Shown here one piece after another: positions 6,225 to 26,782 of a stretch of DNA of 53,209 nt (the stretch's first letter is position 1; every line of letters starts with the position of its first letter). A program made the position numbers and the translations under genes. The stretch covers positions 1-53,209 of the forward strand of contig JAQWTJ010000021.1 of NCBI GenBank assembly GCA_029242765.1, in the 5' to 3' direction. This DNA is from Flavobacteriales bacterium. Lineage in GTDB: Bacteria; Bacteroidota; Bacteroidia; Flavobacteriales_D; Sanyastnellaceae. The notes under the pieces were generated by a model. It was given only the letters and a program-made list of their open reading frames with translations. It searched no databases and had not been told where the DNA came from.

Positions 6225-6319
6225 ATGTGATAGATCGACAGAACGTGGTTTCTCGTGAGCACGGAGTTGCGATAGGTGCGGCAGCCGTTGCATATTGCGC
6301 TTGCGTTGATTCGCTTGTG

Positions 6320-7486
6320 ATGTTCAAGAACCGTCCCATTCCTATTCTTGGCAGCCTGCCGCCCCCGCCCCCGCCAAAAGCTGGGGCCGGACGGAGCGGC
6401 TGGCGCGTATTATGGGCCGGGCTCCCGTCGATGCTGTTCAAACTCGTCGTGCTTACGCGGCACAAGCTATATGATTTCGGCCTTTTCAAGTCGGAAAAAG
6501 GAGCCCTGCCTTCCATCGTCATCGGAAATTTAACGGTTGGCGGCACCGGAAAGACCCCCCACGTAAGAGCCTTGATCGAAGCCCTGGAACTGACCGATGG
6601 TGATCAACCTCCTGCAAACCGCACCCGCTGGGCCATGCTTAGCCGGGGCTACCGTAGAAACACCAACGGTTTCAAGTGGGTCGAATCCACTTCACGCGCA
6701 AGCGAAGTGGGCGACGAGCCCCTAGAAGTCGCCTGGCGCTTCCCGACTTTGGCCGTGGCCGTCTGTGAAAACCGCCCGCAAGGCATCGCCACCATCGCAG
6801 CCGAGGACCGCGCTGATGCCGTTTTGCTCGACGACGCCTTCCAACACCGGGCCCTCCAACCGGACTTGTCCATCGTGCTGGTCGACGTTAAACAGCCCGT
6901 GGACATCGACCGCATGCTTCCGCTGGGGCGCCTGCGCGATGTCCCGAAACGACTTCAGGCCGCCGACGTCGTCATCCTCACCCGTTGCAATGAGCGCCTG
7001 ATCAAGGGCGACCTGCGGCTCTGGCGCGACCGCCTAGGCCTACGCACAGACCAAATCATGCTGCACACGGCCATGCGCCCGAAAGGCCTGCAGAATATGT
7101 ACACCAAAGACCTGGCTGCTTGGCCTAAAAAAGCAGCCGTCGTCTCTGGCATCGCCCGCCCCAAGCAATTCCTCGACTTCGTCGGGGCTGAATGCTCACA
7201 AGTCCAAGAGTTCGTCTACCCCGACCACCACCCTTTCACGGCGACAGACCTTGAAGCCTGGAGAAGGGCACTCAACCAGGGGTGCGAGGCGATTGTCACC
7301 ACTGAAAAAGACGCCGCTCGTATCCGCGAAGTGGACCTCGACAAATCCTTGCCCGTGTTCGTGTTGCCAATCGAAGTGCAATTTCTGGACGAGGGCGGCA
7401 TCGATTCACTTGTTGAGCAAATCCGTCGGGCAACCCAGCGAGCTGATGAGCCGAAAAGCAAAGCAAACGAATTGAACGTGCACTGA
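6320..7486 (+). CDS. lpxK: Tetraacyldisaccharide 4'-kinase
   Basis: Inner-membrane-associated kinase that adds the 4'-phosphate to the lipid A precursor. The Walker A region GNLTVGGTGKTPH, the motif LSRGYRR shortly after it, and DDAFQHR, LPLGRLRD and TTEKDAAR further on are all family hallmarks. The start is uncertain. The ATG at 6320 gives 388 residues with a six-proline run near the N-terminus and fits the family length best. A GTG at 6227 behind a strong Shine-Dalgarno match would add 31 residues, but their third codon positions are poorer in G and C than the body of the gene. It is upstream of the TlpA-like and lpxH genes on the same strand. Confidence 0.92.
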   Translation: MFKNRPIPILGSLPPPPPPKAGAGRSGWRVLWAGLPSMLFKLVVLTRHKLYDFGLFKSEKGALPSIVIGNLTVGGTGKTPHVRALIEALELTDGDQPPANRTRWAMLSRGYRRNTNGFKWVESTSRASEVGDEPLEVAWRFPTLAVAVCENRPQGIATIAAEDRADAVLLDDAFQHRALQPDLSIVLVDVKQPVDIDRMLPLGRLRDVPKRLQAADVVILTRCNERLIKGDLRLWRDRLGLRTDQIMLHTAMRPKGLQNMYTKDLAAWPKKAAVVSGIARPKQFLDFVGAECSQVQEFVYPDHHPFTATDLEAWRRALNQGCEAIVTTEKDAARIREVDLDKSLPVFVLPIEVQFLDEGGIDSLVEQIRRATQRADEPKSKANELNVH

Positions 7487-7523
7487 GGTGGAGAAATGCC
7501 CGTTGACCTTGATATTTGCACCA

Positions 7524-8669
7524 ATGAATGACTCGATGACGCGAAAATTCGCACTTCGCAATGCCGCCATCAACGCCGCCGCAATCGTGGGACTCGCACT
7601 TGGACTGGGCGCCTGCCAAAGCCCAACTTCAATTGGAATTGACGGACAGATCGAAGGCTTTGAAAACCTGGACGTCGTGCTACTCAAATCAGCCACAGGA
7701 CAATTCGTAGCCGTAGACACCACAGCCGCTAACGATCAGGGCCGCTTCGCCTTCGGCGCGGAGGCTTTGGCTGGCGAAGCCATGGACTTGTGCAAGGTGC
7801 AGGCCGGTAAACGGTTCTTTTATTTGTTTGCCGACAGCACTACAGCGGTGCAACTGACGGGATTTGTGGGAAGCAAAGAGAAGGGCAAACTGATCTCGGG
7901 ACTGCAGATACAGGGCGACGCATTGAACGCCCGGTTTTCAGCCTTTATGGACTCAACCCAGCAGTTCTCCAAAAGTCCGCGCCAAGATTTAGATGCCTAT
8001 GCAGCTGGCGTGGCAAAAGCTGAGAAGGACAACCCTCTGGGCTTGTTTGCCTTGGAGCACTTAGACATTCGCAACCACATCGCGCTTGCGAAAGAAGTTC
8101 TGGCCTCTACAAAAGAGCTGATGGGACACACCGTTTTTCACAAGACGATGCTGCGCAAAACCCAGGTGCCCACCAAGGCCCGCGCGCTGAACAATCCCAG
8201 TGACGGCCGCACGCCTAAGCCACAACCCAAACGCCAACGCAACGGGCTGATCGAGGTCGGAATGGAAATGCCCGATCTGCCCTTACCGGACCGAGACGGA
8301 GACCAGCGAAAGGTGAGCGATTTACGCGGCAAGGTGGTGCTGGTGGACTTTTGGGCCTCGTGGTGTGGGCCCTGCCGCCGTGAAAATCCAAACGTGGTGC
8401 GGGCTTGGAATGAATATAAAAACCAAGGCTTCGAGGTCTTTTCAATCTCACTGGACAAGGACAAAACGCGCTGGGAAAATGCGATTGCTCAAGACGAATT
8501 GGCCTGGGACGGTCACGTCAGCGATCTGAAAGGCTGGCAGAGCATTGCCGCCCAAACGTACGGCATCAACAGCGTGCCACACGCCATCTTGGTGGGGCGC
8601 GATGGCACGGTGCTCGCCACCCACCTGCGCGGCGCCCAGCTCGAAGAAAAACTGCTCGAATCGCTTTAA
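7524..8669 (+). CDS. TlpA-like thioredoxin-fold lipoprotein
   Basis: A 381-residue predicted lipoprotein (hydrophobic segment ending GLGAC, Cys31), so probably attached to a membrane on the periplasmic side. The N-terminal half (about 35-200) resembles the DUF4369 domain often found before thioredoxin domains in Bacteroidota. The C-terminal half is a TlpA/AhpC-type thioredoxin fold with the redox motif WCGPC (Cys281 and Cys284) and the cis-proline segment NSVPHAILV. A charged Pro/Lys/Arg linker (about 215-235) joins them. The expected role is thiol-disulfide exchange on exported proteins; partners are unknown. It lies between lpxK and lpxH. ATG 7524 was chosen because it puts a compact signal before Cys31; ATG 7536 is also possible. 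Confidence 0.88.
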   Translation: MNDSMTRKFALRNAAINAAAIVGLALGLGACQSPTSIGIDGQIEGFENLDVVLLKSATGQFVAVDTTAANDQGRFAFGAEALAGEAMDLCKVQAGKRFFYLFADSTTAVQLTGFVGSKEKGKLISGLQIQGDALNARFSAFMDSTQQFSKSPRQDLDAYAAGVAKAEKDNPLGLFALEHLDIRNHIALAKEVLASTKELMGHTVFHKTMLRKTQVPTKARALNNPSDGRTPKPQPKRQRNGLIEVGMEMPDLPLPDRDGDQRKVSDLRGKVVLVDFWASWCGPCRRENPNVVRAWNEYKNQGFEVFSISLDKDKTRWENAIAQDELAWDGHVSDLKGWQSIAAQTYGINSVPHAILVGRDGTVLATHLRGAQLEEKLLESL

Positions 8670-8700
8670 TACCAGCTCGAATTGCTCTGACCCCGACCAT

Positions 8701-9531
8701 TTGAACGACGCCACACACCCGCCCATATTTTTCGCGAGCGACCTCCATTTGGGCGCGCCATCGGCTGCCCTTTCTCGGGATCGCGAGCGTCTCTTTGTCC
8801 GCTGGCTCGAAGAAGTCGCCAGCCTGGGGCGGGAAATCCACTTGGTGGGCGACAGCCTCGACTTTTGGTTCGAGTGGAAACACGTGGTGCCGCGCGGTCA
8901 TGTGCGCTTGTTCGGTGCAATCGCAGCGCTTGTGGACAGCGGAACACCTGTGCATTGGCATTTGGGAAACCACGACTTGTGGTCGTTCGGCTACCTCGAA
9001 CAAGAACTGGGCGTAACGCTGCACCGTGAACCGGTCGAACTGGAACTTTTTGGCGAGCGATGGCTCGTGGGGCACGGCGACGGTTTGGGCCCACACGACC
9101 GCAGGTACAAACGCCTCAAGCGCGTCTTCACAAACCCCTTGGCGCAATGGTCTTTTGCACGCCTGCACCCCAATCTGGCCTGCGCCCTAGCCCAGCGATG
9201 GAGCCGCTCAAGCCGAATCCACAACGCAGCACAAGACGGCTCATTCAACGGGATTGAAAACGAGTGGCTGTTCCAATATGTGCAAGACCAATTTTCAACC
9301 GGCGCACACGACGGCTACATCTTCGGCCACCGCCACCTGCCTTTGGATGTAAAACTACATGCCGACGGCTCGCATACGTTGATTCACCCGCCGTCCGATT
9401 CGCACCCTGCGCCGAAAGCACCAACGGCAGCCGTACAAAGCACGCGCTACATCAACACCGGCGAGTGGCTCCACCGCCCCAGCTACGTGCGATTCGGCCC
9501 AGAAGGCCCCGCACTGCTTCAGTACTCTTAA
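8701..9531 (+). CDS. lpxH: UDP-2,3-diacylglucosamine diphosphatase-like phosphoesterase
   Basis: Calcineurin-type metallophosphoesterase of the LpxH group, which cleaves UDP-2,3-diacylglucosamine to lipid X in lipid A synthesis. All metal-site motifs are present: SDLHLG (about residues 13-18), GDSLDFWFEW, GNHD, VGHGDGLG and FGHRHLP, then YINTGEW near the end. The open frame extends back into the TlpA-like gene, but that part is a shadow; the TTG at 8701 begins shortly before the first motif and gives 276 residues. The nearby lpxK supports the lipid A role. Its stop codon directly abuts the stop of the convergent gene at 9532. Confidence 0.85.
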   Translation: MNDATHPPIFFASDLHLGAPSAALSRDRERLFVRWLEEVASLGREIHLVGDSLDFWFEWKHVVPRGHVRLFGAIAALVDSGTPVHWHLGNHDLWSFGYLEQELGVTLHREPVELELFGERWLVGHGDGLGPHDRRYKRLKRVFTNPLAQWSFARLHPNLACALAQRWSRSSRIHNAAQDGSFNGIENEWLFQYVQDQFSTGAHDGYIFGHRHLPLDVKLHADGSHTLIHPPSDSHPAPKAPTAAVQSTRYINTGEWLHRPSYVRFGPEGPALLQYS

Positions 9532-16375: not shown

Positions 16376-17158
16376 ATGAGAAGAAAGGACAACGACCTGA
16401 TTATCGGGTGGCACCCGGTGCAAGAAGCGCTCGATTCGGGCAAGGAATTGACGCGCGTTCTGGTGCTTCGGAGGGGACGTGATGGAGGACGCGATGGAGG
16501 ACGCGATGGTGGTCGTGATGGTGACGAACACCGCTCGTCAGAGCTGCTAAAGCAACTTCACGCCTTGAAAATCCCGGTACAGAAAGTGCCTCGGGAAAAA
16601 CTCGACCGCGTGACGGGACGCAACCACCAGGGCATCATCGCCTTCGCCTCCCCCATCGAGTATGTACCGTTGGAAGAGATGGTCGCCGGCACGTATGAAC
16701 GCGGGGAGTCGCCTGTACTGGTGGCGTTGGACGGCGTAACGGACGTGGGCAATCTAGGGGCCATCGCCCGCTCGGCTGAGTGCTTCGGCGCGACAGGACT
16801 GATTGTTCAAACTTCGGGTGGGGCGCCGGTCAATGCCGATGCGGTGCGTTCTTCATCGGGCGCCTTACTGCGCATACCTGTGGCCCGTGTACCTGACTTG
16901 AAGCGCGCCTTGAAATTCTTGGGCGAAAGCGGTCTGAATCTGGTGGCACTCACCGAAAAAAGTGAAAAGGACTTGGCTGATTGCCAGCTAAGCGCTCCTT
17001 GCTGCATTGTGGCGGGAAGCGAGCACACGGGAATCAGCCATGAAGTCTGGAACGTGTGCCATGTCCACGCCCGCATCCCCATGACGGGCCAAACCGGCTC
17101 GCTCAACGTGGGGGTGGCCACAGGTATCGCCCTGTACACGCGCCAGCTGAAAAGCTAA
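16376..17158 (+). CDS. rlmB: RlmB/TrmH-type 23S rRNA 2'-O-methyltransferase
   Basis: SPOUT-class methyltransferase expected to methylate the 2'-O of a guanosine (G2251 in E. coli 23S rRNA) using S-adenosylmethionine. The family motifs are clear: NHQGI at the end of the substrate-binding domain, DGVTDVGNLGAIARSAECFGA, the AGSEHTGIS loop, and IPMTGQTGSLNVGVATGIALY forming the knot. A tandem insert of Arg-Asp-Gly-Gly units (about residues 33-50) sits in the N-terminal RNA-binding domain, where relatives have a short loop. Other TrmH-family targets are possible, so the exact nucleotide is inferred. Confidence 0.88.
   Translation: MRRKDNDLIIGWHPVQEALDSGKELTRVLVLRRGRDGGRDGGRDGGRDGDEHRSSELLKQLHALKIPVQKVPREKLDRVTGRNHQGIIAFASPIEYVPLEEMVAGTYERGESPVLVALDGVTDVGNLGAIARSAECFGATGLIVQTSGGAPVNADAVRSSSGALLRIPVARVPDLKRALKFLGESGLNLVALTEKSEKDLADCQLSAPCCIVAGSEHTGISHEVWNVCHVHARIPMTGQTGSLNVGVATGIALYTRQLKS
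16469..16520 (+). repeat. 12-nt tandem repeat encoding GRDG units in rlmB
   Basis: About four copies of GGNCGNGATGGN lie in frame, encoding Gly-Arg-Asp-Gly. The unit is a multiple of three, so copy-number change would not break the frame. Confidence 0.85.
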
Positions 17159-17303: not shown

Positions 17304-17444
17304 TAGGAACTGTTCATGGGCGAATTCCGGCTATTGGGCAGCTAACTGACCGAAAAACGTTACATGACGATTGTTTGCTACGTTCGCTCACTGAACCATC
17401 CCACATCGGGAATGGGAAGACTTTGCCCCACACGAACCTGTGGA

Positions 17445-20400
17445 ATGCCCGTACGTTCCTTTCTCTTGGTGGCTCTCATGGCCGCCTCACTTTCCAGCTG
17501 GTCGCAGCAGTTTACAATTGACACATGCAACGTAGGCTGTGCGCCGACGCTCGACTATGCTCCGGCGGATGCCGACATTTCTTGCGATGCTGCGTTGCCG
17601 AATTTTGACGAAGTCACGGCAACCGCTTGCGTCGAATCGCCCGTGGAGGCTGAAATTGGATTGGAACTGACCAAAAGCAACGGGAGTGCGTGTGTTGCTG
17701 AGACAGCTTTCGGACAAGGGGATGACTGGGCGCTTTGGTTTGCCGGTTTTGAGGCCCAAGGCTACGGTGCGAGTGACAATTTTGTTCCCACAGGTGATGG
17801 ATTGGTCTTTGAACAATACGCCAATGGAACGGCACAACTTTCTGGAGAAGTGCGCAATGACGCAAATCCAGCGCAAGGTTTTGAGGTCCGGATCTTCTTG
17901 CAATTTGGCCAAGACTATGATGCTTGGACGGCTCAAGGGCGGTTACACAAGGACGACCTGGGGACGATGAACTACCCCGATTGGACGTACTACGAGATGG
18001 TCGATACCCTATCGCATTTGATCGGACTCGACGACATGGACGGGGACGTGTTGTATTTAGATCACATGCCGGTGCACCGCTTGTTTGGATTTCAAGTGGG
18101 TGAAGGCGCAAACAACCGCAACTGGAACAACGGCTTGAGCGGTTGGTTTTGGTACCGAGGCGTGATTGATGGGGAGACGGTCAACGGAACGGGTGACGTG
18201 AATGTGGACTTAACGGAATGTGCGCCTTTGGGCGTAGCGTGTCCGGTGACTGAACGGACGCAGCGCGTACGATTTGCACGTGGCTCTTGCGGTCACGACT
18301 ATCATATCCAGACGATCGACCGGGTCGACACCGAGGCGCCAAGCTTTGACGTGGTTCCCGAACTTCTGGTGACCAATTGTGCCACTTTGCCCGCTTTACA
18401 GGCTGCCGAAGATTTTCAAATCAGCGACGATTGCAGCGGACCGAACGATATCACATTGGAACACGTAAGCGACTCGGTGACGGGGCCTGCTTGCAATCAG
18501 ACTTTGCACCGCCGCTGGCGTGCAACAGATGCCTGTGGGCACGCAGCCGATACGGTGCAGGTGGCGGCCATCGTCGACACGGTAGGACCGGTATTTGATT
18601 CAGCGCCCACTCTAGATGAGGCCTCTTGCACAGACTTGCCACCGCTCAACGATCCCGATGAGTTTGAGGTCAGCGACGAATGCTCCGAAAGCGTTACCGT
18701 CGAATTCATTGAAGACTTGATCAGTGGTCCAGATTGCAATCAAATATTGAACCGCGTTTGGCGGGCGACCGACGGCTGTGGCAACACAACGGATTACATC
18801 CAAACGTCGGCTTTGGTCGACACGGTGGGGCCTGTATTTGCAAACCCAACGATGGACACGACCTTGATTTGTACGAATTGGGATGCCTTTGTTCCGGGTG
18901 AGCCCGAGGTGAGCGACGCGTGTTCTGAAGAGATTTCAGTGACCTGGAGTGAACCCACAATTGATGGGGATTTCCCGAGCCAATTCTCAGCTGAGTTCAC
19001 CGTGACCGCCACCGATGCCTGCGGCAATGCAACGGAAGCCCTGTTGACTGTTGCTGTATTGGACACAGCAGCCCCTGTGGTTACAAGTGCGCCGGATGAT
19101 GTTGTGCTGGCCTGCTCTATGTGGCCTGAATACGAAGTGGAATTCCCCGAGGTAGAGGACGATTGCGACCCGCTTGCAGGGCTTGCTCCCACGGCCATTG
19201 ATACTGTGATGCACGATGGTGACTGCGACGGTTCAGCTGAAGTGGAATTGATATTTACGTACACCGATGCCGCTGGGAACAGCGTGCAGTACACGGCGTG
19301 GGTCAGCCTTATCGATACGGTAGCCCCCGAATTTTCAAACGTTCCCGTCGACGCTACGCTCAACTGCGGGGATGACTTGCCTGAAGCGATGCCCGAGGCT
19401 GAGGACGCTTGTTCTGGCGTGGTTGAATTGGCCTTAACCATTGATACGATTGCGGGGGATTGCCAAGGCGAAATGACAGTCATCCGCACATTTACAGCGA
19501 CAGACGACTGCGGCAACGCGGCAACTGCGTCGCAAACATTGACTGTGGTGGACGTGACGCCGCCAACCTTCATTCAGACGCCAGCCGACTCCACTATTGC
19601 TTGCGGCGCCGACTTGCCCAGCGCCTTACCAATCGCCACGGACATTTGTTCGGAGGTGACCGTCACTGAAACGGTGGACTCATTGGCTGGAGATTGCGAC
19701 GGATCTTGGAATGTAACGCGGACCTTCACAGCGAGCGATGATTGTGGAAACACAGCTGTTGCGAGCCAAACGGTTTGGATCATCGACACAATCGCACCCG
19801 TTTTTGTAGACTTCGAAGCTGAAGTTTCCGTAGCCTGCGGGTCGGAAGACACCTTGATGGCTGCCGCTGCAGACGATTGCGGTCCAGTCGTCGACATCAG
19901 CTGGACAGACACTCCGGCCGACACGGGATGCGTACTGCCCATCGGTGCGTACTGGCGCACCTACGTGGCCACCGACGCCTGTGGCAACGCCGCTGAAGCC
20001 ACCCAACTCGTCCTGCTCACCGACGACATCAGCCCCACCTTCTTGTGGGTGCCAGCCGACACGGTCATCGCCTGCGGCCAATCCCTGCCCGAAGACTTTG
20101 CTACCGCTGAGGACAACTGCTCAGGCGCCAGCGTGTCTCTCGAAATTGTCAGCACGCCGGACTCCTGCGATGGCGCATTGATTGTCGAACGAATTTTCAC
20201 TGCTACAGACAACTGTGGCAACATGGCCATCGCCGTTCAAACCGTTCAAGTGACCGACACGGTCGCCCCGGAATTCACGTTCGTACCGGCCGACACGACC
20301 ATTGCTTGCACGGCCGACCTTCCGACCGACTTGGCCTTGGCCACCGACATCTGTTCGGACGTCTCGCTAACCGTTGCCGTCGACTCGACCCAGGGCGACT

Positions 20401-21551
20401 GCCCTTCGGAGTGGACTGTAACGCGCACCTTTACGGCCACCGACGCCTGTGGAAACGCTACTTCTGCCGTGCAAACAGTCTGGACTATCGACACGGTGGC
20501 GCCGGTATTTGACCTGGCAAGTTTGCCTGCAGACACAGCCTTGGATTGCGCTGCGGACATTCCCACATGCGAGGACTACGAGGTGCTGGCCACCGATGAT
20601 TGCGGCGAGGCAACCGTAAGCTGCGCCAGTGAAACAACGCCCGGAGCCTGCGCCGGCGACTACACCACATTGCTCACCTTCACAGCGACGGACGTCTGCG
20701 GCAACGCCTCCACCTACGGTATGACGATCACTGTAACGGACGTCACAGCCCCCGTTTGCACAGTTTGCCCGGCCGACACCGTGGTTTCTTGCGAATCCGT
20801 GCCCGACCCTGCCGATCCTGAGACCTTTACAGTTGAAGAGGATTGCGGAACGATTGAAATTGAACTCGTACAAGACGACACCACTGGAACGCCCTGTGAT
20901 TATTACGTCACGCGCGTTTGGACCTTTACAGATGACTGCGGAAATCAAAGCGAGCACACGCAGACTTTAACGGTGGAAGACCTCACGCCGCCCGAAATTC
21001 CCGCAGGCCTTCCCGCGCTTGACTTCGACTGCACTTTCGAAGTGCCACGTGACACATTGGCCATCGTCGACACCCTCATATATGAGGACAACTGCACAGC
21101 ATTTCTGGACATCTGGGTCGGCTATGAAGACCTGGTGATTAGCGGTGACTCGACCACCAATGAGTACACCCTCGAACGCATCTGGACCTACATCGACCTA
21201 TGTGGAAACGTTTCCATGACGACTCAAGAAATCGTGGTTGACGAGCCGGATGCCAGCCCCGAATTGCCGACCGGCCTCTCGCCCAACGGCGACGGCTTCA
21301 ACGACACGTACTACATCGCTGAAATCGGCCCGGACCCGATCCATCCGCCTTGCTATTGGGCTGAAAACGTATTCACGGTATTCAACCGCTGGGGAAGTTT
21401 GATCTTGGAGGAGCCTGCATATCGCAACAACTGGCAAGGCCGAACCGAGCTGGGCTCGGAAGGAGAAGCCCTGCCCGATGGAACATATTACGTGGTCTTC
21501 CGCGTGGGTCTACGAGAGTTCGCCACGTTTGTCGATTTGCGCACACAATAA
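17445..21551 (+). CDS. Giant HYR/Ig-repeat secreted protein with T9SS type B domain
   Basis: A 1368-residue surface or secreted protein. A signal peptide (MPVRSFLLVALMAASLSSWSQ) is followed by an N-terminal domain of about 250 residues with several cysteines, then about twelve repeats of roughly 75-85 residues. Each repeat opens like DTVAPVF, has a cysteine near its start, a central D-x-C, and closes with TATDxCGN, as in HYR/Ig-like repeats of adhesins. The last 90 residues (LPTGLSPNGDGFND, FNRWG, LPDGTYYVVF) are a gliding-motility-associated type B sorting domain. The repeats probably form a cysteine-stabilised rod. ATG 17445 was chosen because the signal peptide starts there; ATGs at 17364 and 17412 are in frame. 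The PorP/SprF gene follows by 15 bases. Confidence 0.88.
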   Translation: MPVRSFLLVALMAASLSSWSQQFTIDTCNVGCAPTLDYAPADADISCDAALPNFDEVTATACVESPVEAEIGLELTKSNGSACVAETAFGQGDDWALWFAGFEAQGYGASDNFVPTGDGLVFEQYANGTAQLSGEVRNDANPAQGFEVRIFLQFGQDYDAWTAQGRLHKDDLGTMNYPDWTYYEMVDTLSHLIGLDDMDGDVLYLDHMPVHRLFGFQVGEGANNRNWNNGLSGWFWYRGVIDGETVNGTGDVNVDLTECAPLGVACPVTERTQRVRFARGSCGHDYHIQTIDRVDTEAPSFDVVPELLVTNCATLPALQAAEDFQISDDCSGPNDITLEHVSDSVTGPACNQTLHRRWRATDACGHAADTVQVAAIVDTVGPVFDSAPTLDEASCTDLPPLNDPDEFEVSDECSESVTVEFIEDLISGPDCNQILNRVWRATDGCGNTTDYIQTSALVDTVGPVFANPTMDTTLICTNWDAFVPGEPEVSDACSEEISVTWSEPTIDGDFPSQFSAEFTVTATDACGNATEALLTVAVLDTAAPVVTSAPDDVVLACSMWPEYEVEFPEVEDDCDPLAGLAPTAIDTVMHDGDCDGSAEVELIFTYTDAAGNSVQYTAWVSLIDTVAPEFSNVPVDATLNCGDDLPEAMPEAEDACSGVVELALTIDTIAGDCQGEMTVIRTFTATDDCGNAATASQTLTVVDVTPPTFIQTPADSTIACGADLPSALPIATDICSEVTVTETVDSLAGDCDGSWNVTRTFTASDDCGNTAVASQTVWIIDTIAPVFVDFEAEVSVACGSEDTLMAAAADDCGPVVDISWTDTPADTGCVLPIGAYWRTYVATDACGNAAEATQLVLLTDDISPTFLWVPADTVIACGQSLPEDFATAEDNCSGASVSLEIVSTPDSCDGALIVERIFTATDNCGNMAIAVQTVQVTDTVAPEFTFVPADTTIACTADLPTDLALATDICSDVSLTVAVDSTQGDCPSEWTVTRTFTATDACGNATSAVQTVWTIDTVAPVFDLASLPADTALDCAADIPTCEDYEVLATDDCGEATVSCASETTPGACAGDYTTLLTFTATDVCGNASTYGMTITVTDVTAPVCTVCPADTVVSCESVPDPADPETFTVEEDCGTIEIELVQDDTTGTPCDYYVTRVWTFTDDCGNQSEHTQTLTVEDLTPPEIPAGLPALDFDCTFEVPRDTLAIVDTLIYEDNCTAFLDIWVGYEDLVISGDSTTNEYTLERIWTYIDLCGNVSMTTQEIVVDEPDASPELPTGLSPNGDGFNDTYYIAEIGPDPIHPPCYWAENVFTVFNRWGSLILEEPAYRNNWQGRTELGSEGEALPDGTYYVVFRVGLREFATFVDLRTQ

Positions 21552-21566
21552 TTGGCCTTTGTCACC

Positions 21567-22466
21567 ATGAAACTGCTGAAAAATACACTTCTTCTTCTTG
21601 CACTGATGGCCGGCTACACCGCCGCAGCCCAGCAAGATGTGATGATCAGCCAGTACCTATTCAATGGGTTGCTGATCAATCCCGCGTACGCCGGTTCGCA
21701 TCCGTACACCTCTTCGAGTGTGCTGCATCGGAGCCAATGGGCTCAATTTGACGGCGCGCCCACAACGAGCGTTCTCGCCGTGGACGGTGCCATGCGCAAC
21801 GGTTCATTCGGCATGGGACTGCTGGTGTTTCACGATCAACTCGGCATCACCGAACAAACCGAAGTGGCCCTGAACTTTGCCTACCGCTTCCGCTTGGGGG
21901 CCGGGCATATGGCTTTGGGCCTGCGGGGCGGCATGTCCTCGACATTGGCTGACTTGAACGGCGTGAGCATCTGGGACCCGGGCGACCCGGTCTATCAAGG
22001 CGGCACCCAAGTCTATCAAACCGTAAAATTTGGCGCAGGCGCATACTACCACTTGCAACGCATGTATATCGGTGTTTCCGTGCCCACACTGCTGCCCTTG
22101 GGGCCGTTTGCAGAAACCATGGTGCCCCACTATTTGGCCACGGCCGGTGGCATGGTGCGCATCAGCAATGGCGTGGAGCTTAAGCCTTCGATGCTGCTGA
22201 AGATGGTGAACAACACCCCCGCTCAACTCGACATCAACCTCCACGCACTGTTTCAGGAGAAAATCTGGCTCGGCGCCGGTTGGCGTACAGGAGACGCCAT
22301 CGTTTCGATGCTTGAATACCAAGTCACGCCTGAACTTCGGATCGGGTATGCACACGACTTCACAATCTCCGAAATCGGAAACTACTCCAACGGCTCCAAC
22401 GAGTTGTTGATCGGGTTTGACTTCGGTCAAGGCGCTCTTGCCAAACGTTCACCGCGCTATTTCTGA
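21567..22466 (+). CDS. PorP/SprF family type IX secretion membrane protein
   Basis: A 299-residue outer-membrane barrel with a signal peptide (MKLLKNTLLLLALMAGYTAAAQQ) and the family opening DVMISQYLFNGLLINPAYAGS. Typical internal segments follow: HRSQWAQFDGAP, GLLVFHDQLG and the closing IGYAHDFTISEIGNYSNGSNELLIGFDFG. In Flavobacterium, SprF is needed for export of the type B adhesin SprB, and genes of this family often lie beside type B cargo. Its position directly after the HYR-repeat gene makes that protein its probable partner. The start at ATG 21567 is the one directly before the signal; a TTG at 21552 abuts the upstream stop. Confidence 0.92.
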   Translation: MKLLKNTLLLLALMAGYTAAAQQDVMISQYLFNGLLINPAYAGSHPYTSSSVLHRSQWAQFDGAPTTSVLAVDGAMRNGSFGMGLLVFHDQLGITEQTEVALNFAYRFRLGAGHMALGLRGGMSSTLADLNGVSIWDPGDPVYQGGTQVYQTVKFGAGAYYHLQRMYIGVSVPTLLPLGPFAETMVPHYLATAGGMVRISNGVELKPSMLLKMVNNTPAQLDINLHALFQEKIWLGAGWRTGDAIVSMLEYQVTPELRIGYAHDFTISEIGNYSNGSNELLIGFDFGQGALAKRSPRYF

Positions 22467-22470
22467 CTTG

Positions 22471-24399
22471 ATGAACACCCACTTTCTTTCTTTTCGAACC
22501 TCTGCGCTGGTGCTTGGCGCCATTGTGCTGATCACAGGTTGTGCCACGCTCCACTTGGAGGAAGGGGCCGCATCATTTGATCAATTGCGCTACCAAGATG
22601 CCATTCACCACTTGAGCAAAGCGGTTGAGCGAGAAGCGTCGCCTGAGGCGTACCGCATGCTTGCGGAGTCCTATGCCAAGGTCAATGCGACAGACGAAGC
22701 GGCGATGGCCTACGGACTCTTGTGCGCTGGGCCTTTTGCCGAAGACACCGATCGCATTGCCTATGCACGAATCTTGATGAGCCAAGGCCGCTACGACCGC
22801 GCCACAGAAGTGCTCGATGCTGTCGCCGCACGAAACCCCAACGATATGATGGCCCGCTCACTCCAGATCAGTGCTATGAATGCCGAAGGCGTCAAACAAG
22901 ACAGCACGGCCTATGAACTGACGGCAATGCAGACACCCGGCGTGCTGGCCGCTTTCTCCCCAACCATTCACGGGGACCAAATGATTTTCACTGGTACCGT
23001 CGAAAAGTTCGGCGTGCGTGACCCGTACACCGACTTGAGCTACACCGACCTGTACAGTATGCCGCTTTCGGGAGGCAAGCCCACCCTGCTCAAAGGCGCA
23101 AACGGCCCGTACCACGATGGCGTATCCACGGTCTCACCCGACGGCAAGATGCTCATTTACACGCGCAGCTCGCACAAAGAAGAGCGCGCCCGTAAACTCA
23201 CCAGCGAAGGCGACGTCAACAACACCACGATCTACTACGCCCGACGCAATGCCGAAGACACAGGCTGGGAAAAGCCTCTAGAGTTGGGACTAACTGACGG
23301 CCGATTTATGTTCGCTCACCCCGCCTTTTCAAAAGATGGCGAGCGCCTGTACTTTGCCTCGGACTACCCCGGCGGCAGCGGAGGTATGGATATTTGGTAC
23401 ATCAAGCGCAACGGCAACACGTGGCAATTCCCTCCGGTCAATCTCGGACCCACGGTCAATTCGCCAGGCAATGAGGTCTTCCCTCAGCCAAAAGGCAACG
23501 ACACCCTGTACTACGCCTCAGACGCACATTTCACACTGGGCGGATTGGACGTGGTGTACAGCGTGGCGGGCGACTCGACTTGGTCGGAACCGCACCACTT
23601 AGGCTACCCGCTCAACTCGCGCTCAGACGATTTTGGTATTGTATTCAACGGCGACAACCGCAGCGGCTGGGTCAGCTCGGACCGCGCCGGCTACGACAGG
23701 ATTTACGCCTTTACAATCAACCCCACGCCATTGGACGTGCGCGGGCGGGTGGTCGAGGCCAATTCACGCCAGCCGATCCCCTTTGCAAAGATTCGACTAA
23801 TTGACGTTTCAGACGGCTCCGCCTTCACCATCACCGCCGACGAATCCGGCCATTTTGAAGTGCGTTTACCCCATGCCCACCGCTACGAGATCCAAGCCTC
23901 GATGGACTTGTTCTTCAGCAACGAACAGGCCTTCTTGACCCCTGTGGACCCCGTTACCCGAGAGATGGACTTGGTTATCGACCTGCTGCCTGTGGATGAC
24001 TTAACAATGAGCAAGTACGTTTCACAAATCAGTGCTGGAGACGTGTTCCAATTGCCCGAAATCAATTGGGACTTTGACAGCTTCTCCTTGCGGCAGGCGT
24101 CGATGCCCACATTGGAAATCGTTGCTGAATTCTTGAAGAACAACCCGGACATCGTCGTCGAGTTGCAATCCCATTGCGACAGCCGCGGCTACGACCGCTA
24201 CAATCAAAAGCTCTCAGACCGACGCGCACGCAGTGCCGCCAAGTTCCTCATATCGCACGGCGTGGAGGCTAAACAAGTGGTGCCCGTAGGAAAAGGAGAG
24301 ACTGAACTCAAGAACGAATGCGCCGATGGCGTGCCTTGTTCAGAGCCCAAGCACGAACAAAACCGCAGAACAGAGTTCGTAATCGTGCACGTGGATTGA
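22471..24399 (+). CDS. PorE-like lipoprotein (TPR, propeller, OmpA)
   Basis: A 642-residue lipoprotein (ALVLGAIVLITGC, Cys24). Domains in order: TPR-like helices (about residues 35-150), a PD40/WD40-type beta-propeller (about 165-425, with SPDGKMLIYT, FSKDGERLYFASDYPGGSGGMDIW and VSSDRAGYDRIYAF), a carboxypeptidase-regulatory-like domain (about 430-515), and an OmpA-type peptidoglycan-binding domain (about 535-642, DSRGYDRYNQKLSDRRA). This order matches PorE, which ties the type IX machinery to the cell wall. It begins four bases after the PorP/SprF gene stop, so it should anchor that complex to peptidoglycan. It may be a paralogue of the core PorE rather than the core protein. Confidence 0.88.
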   Translation: MNTHFLSFRTSALVLGAIVLITGCATLHLEEGAASFDQLRYQDAIHHLSKAVEREASPEAYRMLAESYAKVNATDEAAMAYGLLCAGPFAEDTDRIAYARILMSQGRYDRATEVLDAVAARNPNDMMARSLQISAMNAEGVKQDSTAYELTAMQTPGVLAAFSPTIHGDQMIFTGTVEKFGVRDPYTDLSYTDLYSMPLSGGKPTLLKGANGPYHDGVSTVSPDGKMLIYTRSSHKEERARKLTSEGDVNNTTIYYARRNAEDTGWEKPLELGLTDGRFMFAHPAFSKDGERLYFASDYPGGSGGMDIWYIKRNGNTWQFPPVNLGPTVNSPGNEVFPQPKGNDTLYYASDAHFTLGGLDVVYSVAGDSTWSEPHHLGYPLNSRSDDFGIVFNGDNRSGWVSSDRAGYDRIYAFTINPTPLDVRGRVVEANSRQPIPFAKIRLIDVSDGSAFTITADESGHFEVRLPHAHRYEIQASMDLFFSNEQAFLTPVDPVTREMDLVIDLLPVDDLTMSKYVSQISAGDVFQLPEINWDFDSFSLRQASMPTLEIVAEFLKNNPDIVVELQSHCDSRGYDRYNQKLSDRRARSAAKFLISHGVEAKQVVPVGKGETELKNECADGVPCSEPKHEQNRRTEFVIVHVD

Positions 24400-24417: not shown

Positions 24418-26782
<2,365 letters not shown>

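Follow-up and report, generated by a model that had tools for sequence, protein, structure and literature searches.

A type B cargo, its carrier barrel and a second PorE-like lipoprotein: a candidate wall-tied surface-display unit in a Flavobacteriales genome

What does a PorE-like lipoprotein do when it is encoded directly behind a type IX type B cargo and a PorP/SprF-family outer-membrane barrel? The question is raised by the window, a 53,209-nucleotide stretch from a Flavobacteriales bacterium analysed here at its full length (contig JAQWTJ010000021.1 of assembly GCA_029242765.1, positions 1 to 53,209), in which such a trio lies on the forward strand at 17445-24399 with gaps of 15 and 4 bases (Table 1). 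We propose that the three genes probably make one surface-display complex, in which an adhesin-like cargo would be held static on a wall-tied barrel. The cargo would cross the outer membrane via the cell's ordinary type IX translocon and, picked up through its type B sorting domain by its own PorP/SprF carrier barrel, would stay bound there. The PorE-like lipoprotein would bind the periplasmic side of the barrel and grip peptidoglycan with its OmpA domain, thereby keeping the cargo static. The SPRYF tail at the C terminus of the barrel may be the part that the PorE-like propeller recognises.

The trio and its second PorE-like gene

The PorE-like protein contains TPR, PD40, CarboxypepD_reg and OmpA domains (Pfam), and its AlphaFold2 model (predicted local distance difference test score, pLDDT, 86.8) has TolB propellers and the PDB entry 6TOP among its Foldseek matches. 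6TOP, the wall-binding domain of Porphyromonas gingivalis PorE, is also the top PDB sequence match, and all PDB sequence matches fall in the OmpA domain of the protein. That domain of P. gingivalis PorE binds peptidoglycan, and the residues D570, N578 and R585 of the window protein repeat the spacing (8 and 7) of its D576, N584 and R591, such that the putative wall-binding residues are intact.

This gene is a second copy. The window genome (2.22 Mb, 110 contigs, 97% complete) holds 8 PF11751 barrels and 27 CHU_C matches, and the PorE model matches it at 11 places, several only in part, with the top score on contig C70 (437 bits) and the window gene second at 325. The core PorP is encoded on contig C86, directly before gldK, gldL, gldM and gldN; no barrel was found beside the C70 porE within the 15 kb examined. 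As far as contigs reach, the window barrel is the only one of the 8 with a PorE-like gene within 3.5 kb on the same strand. The window gene falls outside core PorE (NF052230), being below the cut-off and not the best match of its genome; the C70 copy is also under that cut-off, though it scores above the window gene.

Linkage of the trio is maintained across its genus, where it sits between rlmB and enolase. An ortholog of the PorE-like gene occurs in 13/16 congeners (51-57% identity, E under 1e-150), with the same order of barrel and PorE-like gene at all 13 loci, which excludes a chance arrangement. Among these loci rlmB is present in 11 and enolase in 11, with at least one of the two in all 13; the four misses are contig ends. 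The window barrel shares 67-70% identity with six aligned genus orthologs, and the PorE-like protein 54-55% with four. At one conserved rlmB-enolase site (L053) the reading frames of both barrel and PorE-like gene are interrupted, through either real decay or assembly error, and at another (L050) the PorE-like gene has one internal stop and the cargo lies past the contig end. The preliminary description of this locus had tied its reading to the PorE-like gene not being the only porE of the genome with unrelated neighbours elsewhere, and both the better C70 copy and the lack of a barrel near it bear this out.

A mirror-tree comparison of 84 trios from 46 genomes, with 2000 random re-pairings within genomes, revealed co-divergence of the three genes. 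The barrel-PorE distance correlation was 0.87 (re-pairing mean 0.741, maximum 0.836), that between the barrel and the cargo C-terminal domain (CTD) was 0.693 (re-pairing 0.537), and that between PorE and CTD was 0.698 (re-pairing 0.567); in each case 0/2000 shuffles reached the observed value. The three genes therefore travel as a cassette, and barrel and cargo do co-vary across genomes, a check that the preliminary description had asked for.

Profile searches likewise upheld the gene assignments made from the sequence alone. The 1368-residue cargo has five HYR_4C stretches (Pfam) and a CHU_C type B sorting domain over the Pfam cut-off, which a genome-wide search puts at the same site; the NCBIfam type B model TIGR04131 gives 27.3 bits, below its cut-off of 35. 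An alternative in-frame ATG upstream, at 17364, gives a cargo of 1395 residues. The gene directly 3' of the cargo matches PF11751 (221 bits) and TIGR03519 (241 bits, cut-off 90.55), and its AlphaFold2 model (pLDDT 85.7) has as top two PDB matches chains of 6h3i and 8gl6, both entries for the Type 9 translocon; a PDB search with its sequence gave no match. The three genes are presumably co-transcribed: a consensus scan detected no terminator-like site between them and one on the + strand, at 17442-17459, which overlaps the cargo start.

Table 1. Features of the trio locus, in window coordinates.
Feature	Position	Strand	Details
Cargo, secreted HYR_4C-repeat protein	17445..21551	+	ATG, 1368 aa, 58 Cys
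CHU_C type B sorting domain	21264..21506	+	cargo residues 1274-1354; PF13585 55.5 bits, Pfam cut-off 27
PorP/SprF-family outer-membrane barrel	21567..22466	+	ATG, 299 aa, no cysteine
Barrel C-terminal P-R-Y-F, putative docking tail	22452..22463	+	beyond last strand (277-286)
PorE-like lipoprotein	22471..24399	+	ATG, 642 aa; TPR, beta-propeller, CRD, OmpA
Lipobox cysteine C24 (LITGC)	22540..22542	+	invariant in 10 aligned homologues
Last-blade propeller loop, residues 402-412	23674..23706	+	aligned loop has Cys pair in most partners of Cys-tail barrels
OmpA-type peptidoglycan-binding domain	24070..24324	+	D570, N578, R585 spaced as PorE D576, N584, R591
Flank: RlmB-type rRNA methyltransferase	16376..17158	+	conserved neighbour, outside the unit
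Flank: enolase	24418..25695	-	convergent, 18 bases downstream of PorE-like gene; conserved neighbour, outside the unit

Known relatives and competing roles

Published systems supply the precedents for a complex. A PorE-PorP-PG1035 complex, with the same three kinds of protein as the window, has been isolated from P. gingivalis (Gorasia, 2022; PMC9143113); there PorP is the sole PorP-like protein and a core part, whereas the window set is additional to a gldKLMN-linked PorP and another PorE. The same report notes that six Flavobacterium johnsoniae porP-like genes adjoin porE-like genes and that sprB-sprF do not, and postulates PorP-PorE-like complexes as the link that holds non-mobile type B proteins to the wall. 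Five F. johnsoniae operons have since been described that each encode a type B substrate and a shuttle together with a PorE homologue (Paillat, 2025; PMC12618676), in the order cargo, shuttle, PorE-like gene, as in the window. One substrate, Fjoh_3952, is static and encoded beside the shuttle Fjoh_3951 and the PorE-like Fjoh_3950 (PMC12618676). By map position this operon is our locus L361, in which a barrel ending TSPRFF is followed by a PorE-like gene, with a cargo different from that of the window. Another difference is the lipobox of the window protein, since the F. johnsoniae PorE homologues are reported as not predicted lipoproteins (PMC7192894).

By analogy with the P. gingivalis complex and with static Fjoh_3952, a wall-tied complex is probable for the window; physical complex and static cargo are both known solely from reports on other species (PMC9143113; PMC12618676). 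The literature thus already contains a cargo-specific station anchored to the wall, and the window trio adds another example; what is new here are conserved classes of barrel tail and reciprocal loop cysteines, described below. Two points weigh against our proposal at this level. The P. gingivalis cargo-barrel complex, PorP-PG1035, forms without PorE (PMC9143113), and co-divergence of linked genes reflects joint inheritance and is no proof of contact.

The assembly of PorP-PG1035 without PorE counts equally against a dedicated export station, in which the second PorE would aid translocation of the cargo and not its retention. The preliminary description spoke of a self-contained, cargo-specific station for export or surface anchoring. 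Its anchoring half is well backed by the second porE copy, the cassette-like co-divergence and the precedents; its self-contained export half lacks support, as a different contig encodes gldKLMN and the core PorP (no search was made for the translocon gene sprA). In F. johnsoniae, moreover, co-produced shuttle Fjoh_3951 suffices for visible secretion of a superfolder GFP (sfGFP)-CTD fusion, the chromosomal PorE-like gene presumably being present (PMC12618676). We consider an export role decidedly unlikely.

Might the PorE-like protein be a general tether between outer membrane and wall, its place behind a cargo-barrel pair being only historical? Its closest NCBIfam model is that of CHU_0125 from Cytophaga hutchinsonii (NF053607, 334 bits, cut-off 620), by a small margin over PorE (NF052230, 326 bits, cut-off 600). 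OmpA-type wall binding is common to both proteins, and deletion of chu_0125 makes the outer membrane more sensitive and increases vesicles; the role described for CHU_0125 is in outer-membrane integrity and not in partnership with a type B cargo (PMC5891637). Two scanned F. johnsoniae proteins encoded downstream of type B shuttles also score higher against NF053607 than against PorE, so the label fails to separate tether and cargo roles. The stable linkage of the PorE-like gene, and a divergence matched to the barrel beyond within-genome re-pairing, argue against a general tether, which we regard as unlikely.

A gliding function of the SprB kind would make the cargo a mobile adhesin. The genome has gldKLMN and a GldJ-like gene (455.5 bits against GldJ, just under the cut-off of 458.2), and the window pairs a type B cargo with an SprF-family barrel in the same order as F. 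johnsoniae SprB-SprF. SprF is bonded to GldK via a Cys-X-Cys tail (Liu, 2025; PMC12635249) and moves, and it requires its twin cysteines to attach normally to the track and to keep up continuous helical movement (PMC12635249). The window barrel lacks this hallmark of the periplasmic C-tail: it has zero cysteines, ends KRSPRYF and has a PorE-like partner in cis, whereas dynamic cargo reported in F. johnsoniae is not encoded with a PorE-like gene (PMC12618676). A mobile cargo is thus very unlikely.

Barrel tails and PorE linkage

In the parts of the two 2025 reports covered here, the two lines of work are not joined: PorE is absent from the account of the SprF tail (PMC12635249), and cysteine appears only among the references of PMC12618676. 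Searches of the open-access literature, a scope that leaves subscription papers and preprints outside, yielded no report of a PR tail or of a PorP-PorE disulfide. We tentatively propose that barrel tails form an address code. A tail of the form [ST]PR[FY]F (loosely x-R-hydrophobic-[FL]) would dock to the last-blade loop of a PorE-type propeller and so hold its cargo at the wall; tails of the Cys-X-Cys or CPxF kind would bond to the GldJKN track as it moves; and in one divergent clade the PorE contact would have become a disulfide, with tail cysteine facing a cysteine pair in that loop. If true, the final few residues of the barrels encoded in a genome would predict which type B adhesins stay fixed and which travel on the gliding track, and the tail would point to the PorP-PorE contact site, a contact for which PDB sequence searches found no structure.

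We surveyed tails in three classes: R (PR[FYWL][FYL] no more than two residues from the end), C (a cysteine in the last 20 residues) and other. The rule was devised after inspecting a first set of 88 full barrels, from 80 stretches hand-picked among some 150 places listed in a PF11751 search of 148 genomes. Its main count omits L041-L060, which were picked through PorE, and the partial matches L006 and L053; L041-L060 are included in the hidden Markov models (HMMs), the mirror-tree set and the R-tail partners of the loop comparison below. A PorE-like gene was directly downstream of 37/39 R barrels, 2/32 C barrels (two more on the other side) and 3/17 others; for the seven barrels counted in the window genome the figures are R 1/2, C 0/3 and other 0/2.

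Nearly all barrels of six further genomes (n=85) served as replication, with rule and HMMs unchanged and looser E-value limits (barrel 1e-5 and PorE 1e-8; first set 1e-10 and 1e-15); L279 and L280 had been chosen by length and were excluded, and L278 yielded no barrel. A PorE-like gene was downstream of 13/18 R barrels, 10/33 C barrels (two more upstream) and 7/34 others (one more further downstream). The association of R tails with PorE-like genes replicates (Fisher p 0.0005). The idea that a tail cysteine excludes PorE, prompted by the 2/32 C barrels of the first set, was rejected on the 10/33 C barrels (Fisher p 0.49). Three of the five R misses (L208, L223 and L251) are gldK-linked core PorP genes, and at L201 the start of a PorE-like gene lies downstream with its frame broken. 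Behind this TPRFL barrel are two 186-residue open reading frames (ORFs) with the same PorE-like start (L201:4966-5526 and 8279-8839, +), the first with the broken frame, an arrangement suggestive of local duplication.

Named genomes recruited through PorE rather than through the tail gave a similar picture. Their 80 loci contain 84 PorE-like ORFs, 47 with a barrel directly upstream and 37 without. Forty of the 47 barrels are strict R, five near-R (TPRNL twice, SPRNF, and TPRVF twice), one ends CPRL and one (L313) is without PR, giving PR within the last five residues in 46/47. Among 43 PorE-coupled barrels selected for a PR tail with terminal F, Y or L, 41 have F at the final position, and the linker that leads up to the motif shows poor conservation.

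In genome G370, whose GldM is 100% identical to the fragment in 6ys8, an entry that we take to be the F. johnsoniae structure, all six barrels with a PorE-like gene downstream end [ST]PRFF, and the motif is absent from the four visible ends of the other five. With Fjoh numbers assigned by map position and not by annotation, the tails are NCPCTQSPVHD for SprF, DCNCPAVN for Fjoh_1677 and KCFGCPNYSGN for the Fjoh_4750 partner. Tail type agrees with published behaviour in three clear cases, with SprB and Fjoh_4750 mobile and Fjoh_3952 static. The Fjoh_1677 case is mixed: its clients are counted by the authors as directed to the gliding machinery, and foci of the Fjoh_1123 CTD are mostly static, with helical movement in 3% of cells.

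All nine barrels directly before gldJ have a tail cysteine, and the eight before gldK end NPRFL (three), HPRML, HPRWL, HPKWL, NVRFL and TPRYRH. On contig C78 of the window genome a Cys-tail barrel (SCPSF) directly precedes a gldJ-like gene (L001:8116-9132 and 6298-8046, -).

The chief competitor of the docking idea reads PR[FY]F merely as a clade signature or as a signal for barrel assembly, and we regard it as a serious possibility, if one short of even chances. Barrel proteins often end in an aromatic residue, and the tree shows few independent changes of tail. The PR motif, however, lies outside the last strand, which ends at residue 286 in the window model, and behind a poorly conserved linker; window residues 291-299 have pLDDT below 50. 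Cys-tail barrels often end in F too, so that F alone leaves PR unexplained. The reciprocal cysteines of one clade also speak for docking, though they have a single origin.

Loop cysteines and variant barrels

For these cysteines we compared the aligned last-blade propeller loop (window residues 400-416; counts from the alignment) among PorE-like proteins. Two cysteines occur there in 12/13 partners of Cys-tail barrels (CC in ten, C-x4-C in two) and 0/110 partners of R-tail barrels. Partners of other-tail barrels have the pair in 1/16 cases (L247, of the same clade), and barrel-less PorE genes in 0/38, four of them with one cysteine there. Three R-tail partners have CC outside the loop. The barrels paired with loop-cysteine partners form one clade of 13 rows, 12 with tail cysteine (Shimodaira-Hasegawa-like approximate likelihood ratio test, SH-aLRT, 99), and the pairing thus arose once and was maintained through long divergence instead of evolving repeatedly. 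This pattern suggests that, in the cysteine clade, a disulfide joins the barrel tail to the PorE-like propeller; by extension, the propeller loop may be where the SPRYF tail of the window barrel docks. Pfam scans of two cysteine-clade partners gave an OmpA match for L246 and none for L276, so that wall binding is putative for the clade as a whole.

A number of observations weigh against a tail code. Outside the cysteine clade, four PorE-linked barrels (L163, L167, L233 and L321) have a cysteine in the last nine residues without a loop pair in the partner; L167, L233 and L321 are also R-tail. A PorE-like gene follows barrels with neither tail, in 7/34 replication cases. The KSPRYF barrel at L250:15859 is a true miss, with no PorE-like gene within 3.2 kb, and the PRFF barrels of L091 and L100 lack an adjacent one. 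The fifth F. johnsoniae barrel outside the PorE-linked six, L371, runs off its stretch with its end not visible, and the mostly static Fjoh_1123 foci fit poorly. Core PorP tails of Bacteroidales read S[VI]R[IL]L, with the R and terminal L kept and the P lost (strict PR 0/7). Tail classes and PorE linkage are confined to a few deep clades, and tree-based independent-pair tests of PR tail against PorE were not significant (3 and 6 pairs, starred branches). The mixed Fjoh_1677 case, the L371 end lying out of view and the four Cys tails outside the clade lower our estimate of the address code, which we hold tentatively, and raise that of a clade signature.

A strict PR tail for every PorE partner was rejected on the 0/7 porK-linked, single-PorP Bacteroidales genomes; an eighth genome in that sample has no PF11751 match, and P. 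gingivalis is absent from it (best PorM identity 68%).

Several loci depart from the trio architecture. At L161:4041-5600 (+), L210:4788-6356 (-) and L254:2489-4039 (+), a PorE-like gene without an OmpA match comes directly before a Cys-tail barrel (tails PCAKF or PCPKF), and a gene for CHU_C cargo lies some 1.5 kb upstream of that barrel. Barrels at L162:5642-7858 (+), L169:5553-7169 (+) and L267:4257-5675 (+) have C-terminal extensions of about 170-430 residues that match no other Pfam family. At L168:5143-6945 (+) and L280:3290-5401 (-), behind type B cargo, a barrel is fused to a C-terminal OmpA domain in one ORF, and the L168 fusion also matches TSP_3. These fusions would be barrels with a built-in wall anchor, and as such we count them toward the proposed link between barrel and wall.

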